Part shown: positions 23,950-32,262 of the stretch, one piece after another
How the letters are laid out: each line of letters starts with the position of its first letter
Position numbering within the stretch: the first letter of the stretch is position 1
Translations under genes and position numbers: made by a program
From: Candidatus Kaiserbacteria bacterium RIFCSPHIGHO2_02_FULL_49_16
Lineage (GTDB): Bacteria; Patescibacteriota; Minisyncoccia; Phycocordibacterales; UBA2100
Direction: 5' to 3'
Length of the DNA: 37,444 nt
Assembly: GCA_001781465.1 (NCBI GenBank)
Contig: MFLD01000008.1
Coordinates: 1-37,444 of the forward strand
The notes under the pieces: generated by a model
Told to the model about the DNA's origin: nothing
What the model saw: the letters and a program-made list of their open reading frames with translations, nothing else
Database searches by the model: none

Positions 23950-25863
23950 ATGGAAAAACACTTTCTTCAAAACTATGATGTTCACCGTAAACCAGAGGCT
24001 ATAAAGGCTGTAAAGAAAAAGGAGCGTTTGGCAGGAGAACAAAACCTTGTAAGAGACTACGATGAACGCATCACTGCATATATAGAAAGGCTAGGTAAGA
24101 TTTTTCTAGATCCAGGAAGAAAGGATAAAGAAAAGAACGAAAAGACAAGAAGAAGAAATCTCGAAATTCTCAAACCGACTATTTACAAAAATACGTTAGT
24201 CAAAAAAGAAGATTTCCCCGAAAGTTATTTTGAGCATCAAAAGTTAGAATTTAAAAATAGGGGGATGGGTGATGTTAAATTCAGCGCGCAAGACAAACAG
24301 CAAGAAATCGCCCGCGTACAAGAAGCCCAGAAAAAAAGTCTTGATGTCTGGATAGACCATCTCTCAAGCGATGACAGTCATTATCCCGACGACATTAAAT
24401 ATTTCGCTGTGCAGGGCATTTTGAGAACCGGAAGTTTTGACAAAGATAACTATCGCTTCAGCAAAAGAACTGAAGCTACCACTGCCCCTTTTTATCAAAT
24501 AGACCACGAAGTTTTGTCTATGGTTATGGGAGCTTTGGAAGCAGTCCATTATCACGGGGACACAACTCACTATCATCGGGAACTGCTTGACCTTATTGAG
24601 CAGAACAAAGACTTCGGCAGTATGTACGCCGAGGCTATGCGACATTTGGATAAAGAATCGGGCAAAGACAAAGCGCTTGAAATCACCGACGGAAAATGGC
24701 GCGTTTTCAAGCAAGGAAGCGACCCGCAGGAACTCGTCAATGCTTTTGCGGGCAAGCGCGCATATCTTTGTCTCGGAAACATCGGAGACGCGAGCGGATA
24801 TCTTTCACGCGGCGATGTGCAGGTATATTTTTCCAACAACCGCGCGGGTGTTCCAGTGTGGCCGCGTGTGGCGATTGCTGTCGAACCCGATAGTGGAGCA
24901 TATGAAATGCGAGGGACGTATAACGCCAACGAAGATATTGATCCGGAAATCTCCCAAACAGATATTATCAAAAACAGACTTGTTACTGTGCCCAACGGTC
25001 AGTCGTTTGCGAAAAAAGACGCTGATATGAAACTAGTAACAAAACTTTACCAAAAATGCTTTAAGGTAGACAAGAATACGAAAGAAAAAACATATCTCAA
25101 CCCAACACTTACAAAAGAAGAATTACAATTCCTCTACGAAATCAATGCGCTGATTGAAGGTTTCGGATACGAAAGTCGTGATCCGCGCATCGCGGAGCTC
25201 CGCGATGCGCGGGACACGAATGCAGATTTATCGATACTTTTTGATTGTGCGCCAGAAAATATTGCACGCGCTGTTTCTGAGATTTCTGAACATACTAAAG
25301 CATACATTGGGACACTTGAGCCTGGTATTTTTGATGCGTTACCCGTGACAGTTGAGCATATCTACACGAAGTTTCCCAAAGAACGAGTTAAGTTTCGGCA
25401 TATAGAACTCGGCACAGGAATTACAGATGGCCCCACATTCCAAAAAGCCATTGAAGCACAGGGAATGAAGATATATCGCCCTGGGGCAGAAATGCTTAAA
25501 AATCCAGATTTCAAAGTCGTTGGCGAGCGCGTGAATGCGGAACTTGTTGAAGTTTCAGTGCGTTCGCTTGGTTTTGAAACGGCAACGCGATACGACAACA
25601 TATGTGAGCGAGCTAAAGAACTCGGACTTGCCGTTTGTCCGGCTGAAGTCGGTCCACAGCTTCGTCTTCAATACAAAGACCAGCCCTTAGATGAATACTT
25701 AATTGTTGCGATGAATGCCATTAACGACTCGGGCGGCCGCCCGGGTGTCTTCAGCATGGGTGCGGAGGGCGACGGGCTGTGGTTGGGCGCGGCCTACGGG
25801 CGTCCCGGCGACGAGTGGGCTCCCGAGGATCGCTTCGTGTTCCTCCGTCCCCGCAAGAATTAG
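23950..25863 (+). CDS. 637-aa protein with C-terminal variable-region-like cassette (candidate DGR target)
   Basis: C-terminus NDSGGRPGVFSMGAEGDGLWLGAAYGRPGDEWAPEDRFVFLRPRKN paralogous to the cassette at 26259; no evident signal peptide. Confidence 0.7.
   Translation: MEKHFLQNYDVHRKPEAIKAVKKKERLAGEQNLVRDYDERITAYIERLGKIFLDPGRKDKEKNEKTRRRNLEILKPTIYKNTLVKKEDFPESYFEHQKLEFKNRGMGDVKFSAQDKQQEIARVQEAQKKSLDVWIDHLSSDDSHYPDDIKYFAVQGILRTGSFDKDNYRFSKRTEATTAPFYQIDHEVLSMVMGALEAVHYHGDTTHYHRELLDLIEQNKDFGSMYAEAMRHLDKESGKDKALEITDGKWRVFKQGSDPQELVNAFAGKRAYLCLGNIGDASGYLSRGDVQVYFSNNRAGVPVWPRVAIAVEPDSGAYEMRGTYNANEDIDPEISQTDIIKNRLVTVPNGQSFAKKDADMKLVTKLYQKCFKVDKNTKEKTYLNPTLTKEELQFLYEINALIEGFGYESRDPRIAELRDARDTNADLSILFDCAPENIARAVSEISEHTKAYIGTLEPGIFDALPVTVEHIYTKFPKERVKFRHIELGTGITDGPTFQKAIEAQGMKIYRPGAEMLKNPDFKVVGERVNAELVEVSVRSLGFETATRYDNICERAKELGLAVCPAEVGPQLRLQYKDQPLDEYLIVAMNAINDSGGRPGVFSMGAEGDGLWLGAAYGRPGDEWAPEDRFVFLRPRKN
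25183..25212. repeat. Perfect 30-bp palindrome inside CDS
   Basis: CCGCGCATCGCGGAGCTCCGCGATGCGCGG. Confidence 0.95.
25722..25856 (+). repeat. Variable-region-like cassette VR1
   Basis: 135 bp aligned gap-free to 26259-26393; identical 26-nt 3' end CGCTTCGTGTTCCTCCGTCCCCGCAA. Confidence 0.7.
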
Positions 25864-25929
25864 CCCTTTGAACTTAGGACACTTGGGACTTTTGCATTTT
25901 GCACTTTGGACCTTTGTCCTTTGAATTTT

Positions 25930-26071
25930 CTGCTATTATTTACAGCAGTCGGTGAATAGTCACCGGAGACCACGGTTTCCGGCTACCGACTAAGTATCCG
26001 TACACTGAGAGCGTGAGCGGTTAACCCAAGTAGGTCATTTTGCTAAATGAGGCTTCTCACGGAGGGTGTAC
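25930..26071 (+). ncRNA. Putative structured non-coding RNA or leader between the cassettes
   Basis: Hairpins CTGCT/AGCAG, GGTGA-atag-TCACC, nested GTACAC(CGTGAG(TCATTT-tgct-AAATGA)CTCACG)GTGTAC; no convincing ORF. Confidence 0.45.
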
Positions 26072-26127
26072 GCCGTCTACAGGTGCATATAAGTACCCAT
26101 AGGCAAAACTCAAAAAGTTGGTGATAC

Positions 26128-26469
26128 TTGGTGCGGAGTGCTGGCGGATTAGAACCTCTTGTGGTTCGATATCCCAAATACTTGGCAACACCAGTCATAC
26201 AGCCTTGCGATCGGCACGAGGCCTTCGAGAGGTGGAGATACGGATGGCACTTCGCATATAACGACTCGGACGGCAACCCTCATGTGTTCAACGTGAATCG
26301 GAACGACGACGGGCTGTGGTTGAACGCGAACAACGGGAAGCCCGTCCACGAGTGGTCTCCCGAGTACCGCTTCGTGTTCCTCCGTCCCCGCAAATCTCAC
26401 CACATACTTTGCGCCAGACCGCCCTTCACAGGCGGTTTTGCGTTTCCTTTTTCATCCGGTAGAAGCTAG
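26128..26469 (+). CDS. Small protein carrying second variable-region-like cassette
   Basis: FERWRYGWHFAYNDSDGNPHVFNVNRNDDGLWLNANNGKPVHEWSPEYRFVFLRPRK; start uncertain (TTG/GTG after in-frame TGA). Confidence 0.5.
   Translation: MVRSAGGLEPLVVRYPKYLATPVIQPCDRHEAFERWRYGWHFAYNDSDGNPHVFNVNRNDDGLWLNANNGKPVHEWSPEYRFVFLRPRKSHHILCARPPFTGGFAFPFSSGRS
26259..26393 (+). repeat. Variable-region-like cassette VR2
   Basis: Gap-free paralogue of 25722-25856; Asn/Asp-rich codons. Confidence 0.7.
26417..26439 (+). terminator. Rho-independent terminator-like hairpin before ileS
   Basis: ccgcccttcacaggcgg followed by tttt. Confidence 0.6.
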
Positions 26470-30300: not shown

Positions 30301-32262
30301 ATGGTAGACCCGATGCCAAATGACGAAGAGAAAATGAATCGCTTGCGCCGCGCGATGTACTCGCGCTCGCTCGCTCCAAAATTGAAGGAACATCAAAGGC
30401 GCGCGCTAGAAGACGATCGGACTGATGTGTCGGAGGATTGGAAGAGGCAATATCAAGAACTGCAAGGCGCTACGGTTGCCCCGAGGATATTCTTGCGGTT
30501 GCGCAGTGTGGTGCGGTGGCTCGTCATCGCCCTAGTCATATTTCTGATTGGTGTTGCTGGATTTCTGACTTACTATTTTACGATAGGCGGAGGTGCCACG
30601 ACTGCGACTTCTGGCAAGATTGGCATATCAATTTCCGGCCCCTCGCGTGTTTCGGGCGGTGAACTGACGGAACTTCAAATTACTATTTCAAATCGAGGCG
30701 AAACAGGACTTGAACTTGCCGACCTGGTCGTTATGTATCCCCCTGGCACGCGTATGTCGCCAAGCATTCCAACCGACGTTCCAGGCCAGAGAATTCCCAT
30801 CGGGGCTATTAAGTCTGCAGGTGTCGTAAATGTGCCTATTCGCGCTGTATTTTCTGGCGCAGAAGGAGGGCAGGCCGTTTTGAAAGCTCGGCTTGAGTAT
30901 CGAGTCACCGGCTCTAGCGCTGTTTTTGTCTCTGAATCGGAGAATTATTTTATCATATTCAGTTCCAGCCCTATTTCCGTATCTATTGAAGGGAATACCG
31001 AAACTGTTTCCGGACAACCGATAGCTCTAATCGTGAACGTTACATCAAACGCCACGGCCCCGATAAAAGATGTGATGTTGAGTGTCGGGTATCCATTTGG
31101 ATTTGCGTTCTCTTCCGCAAGTCCGAAACAGATTCGACCAGGAGTCTGGGAGCTTGGCGACATAATGCCCGGAGCATCCGCTCGCACAATCACTCTCAAT
31201 GGGACGCTATCCGGAGAACCCGGGGACGAGCGAGTCTTTCGAGTTGCTTTAGGTACCAGAAAATCAAAAGACAGCCAAGGAATCGACACGATTTTTTCGG
31301 AAACTCCGTTCCGCATGGCGGTGTCAAAACCGTTTCTCGGGCTCTCAATTTCTGTGAATGGCTCTAACGGCGGAAGCGCTGTTGTTACCCCTGGAGGCAA
31401 TGTAAACGCAGTTGTAACTTGGAAGAACAATCTCACGACGGAAATCAGGGACGCGGTTGTGGTCGCTCGCCTCTCCGGTCTCGCGATAGACGGCTCGACC
31501 GTCAGATCTAACGACGGCTTTTATCGCTCATCCGACAATTCTGTGTTGTGGGACAAAACAACGACCTCGGGAACATTCGCGATTGTCTCAGCTGGGGCTA
31601 GCGGATCGGTTAACTTCAATTTTCAGATTCCACCGAGCGACATTTTACAAACAATAAAGAATCCAAGCCTTAATATCACTGTCCATGCCGCGGGAAAACG
31701 ATTGTCAGAATCGGGAGTTTCAGAAAGTCTTCAGTCTACCGTTTCGCAAAAGATAAAAGTCGCGAGCGATCTTGGGATTGCCGCAGAAGGGTACTACCAT
31801 GACAATCCTTTTGGCGCTTCCGGCACTCTTCCTCCGCAATCAGGAAAGGAGACAACGTACGCGCTACGTTTAGTCGTGACGAACACAACGAACAAGATAA
31901 AAAACGCGAAGCTTACGGCAGTAATGCCAAGCTATGTTCGTTCGCTCGGTCCTTCCATGTTCGCGCCATTTTCGGAAAAGATATCCTTCAACATAGGCGA
32001 CGGTTCCGTAACTTGGAACATTGGCGACATTGAGCCTGGAGTAGGAGTGAATGGAACTCCTCCGCGTCAGGCGGCATTTGCCATAGGATTTACGCCTTCC
32101 ACTAGCCAGATAGGGACACAACCGGTGCTGCTTCAGGATATTTCACTAACTGGAACGGATGTCGCGACTGGCGAGAGTGTCTCACGTTCAGCTCCTGATG
32201 TGACGACAAATCTTGTGAACGATTCCGGATTCAGTGCCACGGAGGCGGTGGTAGTTAGGTAG
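30301..32262 (+). CDS. Membrane-anchored protein with repeated DUF11/CARDB-like extracellular domains
   Basis: Single N-terminal TM (WLVIALVIFLIGVAGFLTYYFT) then beta-rich Ser/Thr/Gly repeats. Confidence 0.6.
   Translation: MVDPMPNDEEKMNRLRRAMYSRSLAPKLKEHQRRALEDDRTDVSEDWKRQYQELQGATVAPRIFLRLRSVVRWLVIALVIFLIGVAGFLTYYFTIGGGATTATSGKIGISISGPSRVSGGELTELQITISNRGETGLELADLVVMYPPGTRMSPSIPTDVPGQRIPIGAIKSAGVVNVPIRAVFSGAEGGQAVLKARLEYRVTGSSAVFVSESENYFIIFSSSPISVSIEGNTETVSGQPIALIVNVTSNATAPIKDVMLSVGYPFGFAFSSASPKQIRPGVWELGDIMPGASARTITLNGTLSGEPGDERVFRVALGTRKSKDSQGIDTIFSETPFRMAVSKPFLGLSISVNGSNGGSAVVTPGGNVNAVVTWKNNLTTEIRDAVVVARLSGLAIDGSTVRSNDGFYRSSDNSVLWDKTTTSGTFAIVSAGASGSVNFNFQIPPSDILQTIKNPSLNITVHAAGKRLSESGVSESLQSTVSQKIKVASDLGIAAEGYYHDNPFGASGTLPPQSGKETTYALRLVVTNTTNKIKNAKLTAVMPSYVRSLGPSMFAPFSEKISFNIGDGSVTWNIGDIEPGVGVNGTPPRQAAFAIGFTPSTSQIGTQPVLLQDISLTGTDVATGESVSRSAPDVTTNLVNDSGFSATEAVVVR

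Follow-up and report, generated by a model that had tools for sequence, protein, structure and literature searches.

A diversity-generating retroelement cassette without a reverse transcriptase in a Kaiserbacteria genome, and the conserved RNA leader 5' of its template repeat

The window, by which we mean the whole stretch of 37,444 nucleotides analysed here (contig MFLD01000008.1, positions 1 to 37,444, of Candidatus Kaiserbacteria bacterium RIFCSPHIGHO2_02_FULL_49_16), holds a cassette of a diversity-generating retroelement (DGR) with a target gene, a variable region (VR), a structured RNA leader and a template repeat (TR), and with no reverse transcriptase (RT) or Avd gene. We consider it probable that this cassette is now inactive or was formerly driven in trans, because RT and Avd are missing, the motif 3' of the TR is degraded and the two repeats have diverged at sites other than adenines. 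What is new in the finding is the conserved 5' leader, although its novelty is provisional: our literature search found no description of such a leader, within an incomplete coverage of DGR RNA structures and CPR surveys.

The repeat pair and the target protein

Two repeats of 135 bp lie on the forward strand at 25722-25856 (copy 1) and 26259-26393 (copy 2), with a spacing of 537 nt. They align without gaps, are 79% identical and, as the initial annotation had recorded, differ at 29 positions while having their first 11 nt at the 5' end and their 26 terminal 3' nt in common, the latter being the IMH-like end that a VR shares with its TR. At 16 of the differing positions the A is in copy 2, at one it is in copy 1, and at 12 it is in neither. 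Mismatches are concentrated at the adenines of copy 2 (16/29 A sites vs 13/106 non-A sites; Fisher p=4.5e-6), so the adenine-mutagenesis-like pattern pointed out in that annotation is not due to chance. The TR is intergenic, yet the 13 of 29 differences at non-A sites depart from the near A-only pattern of a functional DGR.

Copy 1 is the VR and forms the C-terminus of a 637-amino acid open reading frame (23950-25863, forward strand), at the 3' end of the coding gene. This DGR target belongs to a family conserved in Patescibacteria, with matches in 26 of the 147 related genomes searched, its own genome counted. It gave no convincing match in Pfam, NCBIfam, PHROG or PDB sequences; its N-terminal part matched nothing in these searches, and a fold search with the full-length protein gave nothing usable. 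The C-terminal residues 456-637 (182 amino acids) were modelled with AlphaFold2 at a pLDDT of 88, and the top PDB fold matches of the model are mostly C-type lectins, weak ones (best E 0.19, TM 0.31-0.35), so that the domain is modelled as having a weakly C-type-lectin-like fold. Target orthologues in G014 and DP16D_bin.14 keep the VR-like C-terminus in genomes where no leader was detected, and therefore the protein can outlive its retroelement. Within the target gene, at 25176-25219, there is a near-perfect 44-nt palindrome with 22-nt arms that are 91% complementary and no loop. Further along the window, at 30301-32262, a 653-amino acid open reading frame, for which Pfam has no match and whose N-terminal region includes a hydrophobic stretch, sits at the syntenic place of the DGR target of G044; we set it aside, as it is unrelated to the DGR target despite this synteny.

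A structured leader RNA 5' of the template repeat

The spacer between the copies is a conserved RNA in its own right, a point missed in the first reading, and its 400 nt can be aligned with the VR-TR spacer of relatives. It contains a TATTAT box (25934-25939, forward strand), a putative -10 element of the TR-RNA judged from its position in relatives; in most related loci a TATAAT-like box directly precedes the leader, and a generic promoter scan of the forward strand did not pick up the box in the window. The 5' domain of the leader (25946-26111) consists of two covarying hairpins, the second with an inserted segment; in its alignment (A3), 16 of 27 pairs show compensatory changes and 96.5% of cells are paired, vs 78.6% after shuffling. 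The leader core (26112-26257) comprises the 146 nt 5' of copy 2. It carries the motif AAAAA...GATACTTGG; next comes a strand of 12 nt, GTGCGGAGTGCT (26131-26142), that pairs with the 12 nt directly before the TR, GGCACTTCGCAT (26246-26257), to make a long-range helix whose 3' strand is the end of the core and stops 1 nt before the TR. Eleven or 12 of the 12 pairs can form in 21 loci, and all 12 in the window. Compensatory changes occur at 17 of the 23 pairs of the core across 20 sequences, a count that none of 500 shuffles reached, and 96.7% of cells are paired vs 80.9% after shuffling in the same 20 sequences. The structural case for the leader rests on this covariation, because the folding energy of the window's leader by itself is ordinary (z=-1.43).

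How widely is such a leader found? A covariance model of the core (R1), built from 20 sequences that include the window's leader, has a single match in the window's genome (26112-26257, 57.8 bits, E=2.9e-9; E=3.3e-10 in a second search), and no Rfam 15 model matches the leader or spacer. In the order-level set R1 finds leaders in 47 of 147 genomes, and 43 of 59 such leaders are followed on the same strand by a DGR RT, at a distance of 498-633 nt (median 539). Of 294 genomes sampled across the phylum, 48 carry the leader; a DGR-type RT is found in 47 of these 48 (Fisher p=1.5e-26). The exception is the genome of the window, and none of the other 47 supplied a sequence for building the model, as the window did. 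The leader appears to mark DGRs of this type across Patescibacteria. Viral contigs were examined as further carriers and set aside: an 18-nt leader motif led to six contigs, with unconvincing model scores of 24.6 bits at most.

The helix marks the 5' border of the template, since homology between TR and VR begins a median of 2 nt after it in 27 loci, and it may be there that the RT is halted. On the other side, most TRs are followed by a conserved motif, CAACTCTCTTCATTTCTC, and a hairpin; the motif has 0-3 substitutions in most loci and is degraded in the window (8/18 substitutions), while RT-linked loci without it also occur (G126, G110). The hairpin of the window (ACCGCC/GGCGGT plus TTTT, 26418-26445, forward strand), recognised by eye and not reported by a terminator scan of the forward strand, is the likely terminator of the TR-RNA. 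The gene that follows encodes a class I tRNA synthetase of the I/L/M/V group, here called IleS.

Complete and RT-less cassettes in relatives

A search with the DNA of copy 2 through 147 genomes, most of which belong to the genus, family and order of the window's organism, found DGR loci. Complete DGRs in relatives are arranged as target with VR, structured RNA leader, TR, hairpin, antisense Avd gene and RT. In G143, a target with a C-terminal VR and the same C-terminus as in the window is followed by the TR 506 nt further on, and then by antisense Avd and RT; in G001, of the same genus, leader, TR, antisense Avd and RT have the same arrangement. The DGR origin that the initial annotation ascribed to the repeats is borne out by these complete loci, which share target C-terminus, leader and TR with the window. 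The RT of the relatives belongs to RVT_1, its best PDB sequence match being chain 8ub7 (E=7.8e-42), and their Avd matches the bAvd family and the PHROG entry 'Avd protein of DGR'. The antisense Avd gene can be seen between TR and RT at L014:3737-5128 and L021:5866-7241. Because of this placement, the TR-RNA and the RT mRNA are probably separate transcripts.

The window is not alone in having a leader without a DGR RT, as four more genomes of the order-level set share this state. G138 is a single contig, 100% complete, with a drifted pair and only a weak RT match (31% identity) elsewhere. G096, also 100% complete and with no RT detected, has 11 mismatches, all of them at template A and none at non-A sites, and an intact 3' motif (L106, G096:C7:359701-361500); here the RT has either gone missing only very recently or is provided in trans. 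G145 has the leader and an apparently truncated TR, and G091, an 84% complete genome, has a broken Avd gene. Further cassettes lack an RT in cis and have one elsewhere in the genome, some of them lying at contig ends. One is in G040 (C4:53097-53236, L117), where VR, leader, TR and 3' motif stand beside an unrelated gene with four VR/TR differences, and the RT, with a leader of its own, sits on contig C3; the C4 cassette is a candidate satellite DGR. In G033 (L015:2067-3200) the gene of an IS3-like transposase apparently interrupts a DGR RT some 50 residues from its start, and other RT pieces are found on contig C32.

Erosion, alternative readings and related systems

The assembly of the window's genome has 904,852 bp in 46 contigs and is 90.8% complete. 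Searches of these 905 kb with PF00078 and with two DGR RT proteins found no RT, and a corresponding search, with G001 as positive control, found no Avd, an accessory protein that is usual but not universal in DGRs; relatives served as positive controls in each of the protein searches. That no RT lies near the repeats, as the initial annotation stated, therefore extends to the rest of the assembly, and the genome-wide search it had proposed turned up neither RT nor Avd nor a third copy of the repeat. As the assembly is 91% complete and in 46 contigs, there is room for an RT elsewhere in the genome.

The pair itself has eroded. Non-A template sites differ at 13/106 in the window vs 38/2189 in 23 pairs from RT-bearing genomes (p=2.3e-7), a calibration set that leaves out G086 (28 non-A differences) and keeps G133 (9 non-A); the median is one non-A difference per pair in the set and the window has 13. 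Drift alone is no proof of RT loss, because G133 and G086 bear an RT and have drifted too. The template has lost adenines as well. Of 32 sites with A in most relatives' TRs, copy 2 retains 26, with C or T instead at repeat sites 23, 87, 89, 98, 99 and 107, the ancestral states being taken from the TRs of nine other species. At five of these six sites copy 1 carries G, and A-to-G is the usual change at a mutated template A in this clade. Decay of the template probably came later than the last writing of the VR, since copy 1 has at these five sites the usual product of adenine mutagenesis. We also considered that copy 2 had itself been mutagenised by a DGR; all six of its lost adenines have become C or T whereas A-to-G dominates, and drift is preferred, on small numbers. 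In many pairs of this clade G predominates in the VR where a template A was mutated (24/29 in G044, for example), a bias that may be mutational or selective.

Might the cassette still be at work? It could be an active satellite whose leader is read in trans by an RT-Avd complex from an unassembled region or from another element, the VR being diversified to this day. The G040 cassette on C4 with its RT on C3 and the A-only differences of G096 are in keeping with this, as are the intact leader pairing of the window and the trans diversification reported in Thiohalocapsa (PMC10907252). However, the 13 non-A mismatches and the six lost template adenines speak against recent rewriting, and the degraded 3' motif and the RT and Avd missing from 905 kb of assembly also weigh against it; we judge such current activity rather unlikely. 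A cassette that is inactive now, or was formerly driven in trans, is preferred. The base pairing of the leader has been preserved in spite of insertions, which is easier to reconcile with ongoing use or a recent loss than with an old fossil.

The initial annotation had taken both copies to be VRs written from an unseen third sequence, with the TR elsewhere in the genome, and had explained the non-A differences as sites where both copies were mutated from an A. Copy 1 is a VR, and descent of a copy 2 base from A holds for the six sites at which C or T stands in place of the A of relatives' TRs, although erosion of the template once activity was lost is the better explanation for them. Of the 12 differing sites where neither copy has A, five have A in relatives' TRs; the remaining non-A mismatch sites do not have it there. 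Copy 2 lies outside any target-like gene and occupies the TR position behind the leader that accompanies relatives' TRs, as in RT-bearing DGRs, and the assembled genome has no third copy, so that copy 2 is the TR itself and a hidden template for both copies is very unlikely. Both copies lie within open reading frames, as they would if a C-terminal domain had simply been duplicated and had diverged at the protein level with no link to a DGR. This is hardly credible in the face of the leader RNA, the TR position, the adenine enrichment and the RT-bearing homologues, and the homologous complete loci already refute a reading by duplication alone.

With the eroded RT-less cassette as the preferred reading, a mechanism can be proposed. 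The target would be followed by a separate non-coding RNA gene in which a TATA-like box precedes the folded 5' leader, the TR and the hairpin. In intact relatives, the products of the Avd and RT genes a short way downstream would take this TR-RNA as template, the TR would be copied with errors at adenines, and the resulting cDNA would overwrite the VR; the leader may hold the RT-Avd complex, and the 12-bp helix directly 5' of the TR may end cDNA synthesis. In the window, RT and Avd would have been lost, the 3' motif degraded and TR and VR left to drift at non-A sites, leaving a frozen receptor-like protein.

Among known systems, the closest are the Patescibacterial (CPR) DGRs of clade 2 in Roux et al. 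2021 (PMC8144416), for which CPR targets are reported typically to lack recognisable conserved domains. The window resembles that clade in its target with a C-terminal VR, its intergenic TR, its adenine-directed differences and the RT and Avd of its relatives, putative members of the clade, although the window's own cassette has neither RT nor Avd and its TR and VR have drifted. Intact relatives also share parts and logic with the DGR of Bordetella phage BPP-1 (mtd/avd/TR/brt), and their RT is related in sequence to that in 8ub7. In the BPP-1 TR-RNA, the avd coding sequence is 5' and a folded 3' spacer recruits RT-Avd (PMC12875486); unlike in BPP-1, the long structured part in the relatives is 5' of the TR, the 3' side is a short motif and a hairpin, and avd is antisense. 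Incomplete DGR loci that miss local parts, as the window's does, are described from Thiohalocapsa PB-PSB1, some of them apparently driven in trans, so trans-acting and incomplete DGRs are not without precedent, although that organism is from another phylum and the available part of the account mentions no conserved 5' leader RNA (PMC10907252).

What might guide the RT of a Patescibacterial DGR to its template? In the literature searched we found nothing on this point. In this phylum, DGRs are a major source of targeted variation in proteins. We put forward, as a proposal with even chances of being right, that their template is an independently transcribed non-coding RNA laid out unlike that of BPP-1. 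Its conserved 5' leader, composed of two hairpins and a long-range helix that adjoins the TR, would recruit RT-Avd and bring cDNA synthesis to a halt. As this leader would accompany the TR, RT-less cassettes could then be supplied in trans or persist as fossils. The window's cassette is an example of such an eroding element. The covariance model detects DGR cassettes, including RT-less ones that are invisible to RT-based surveys, and the covarying leader, with a helix border that is also the TR border, offers a concrete, testable RNA handle.
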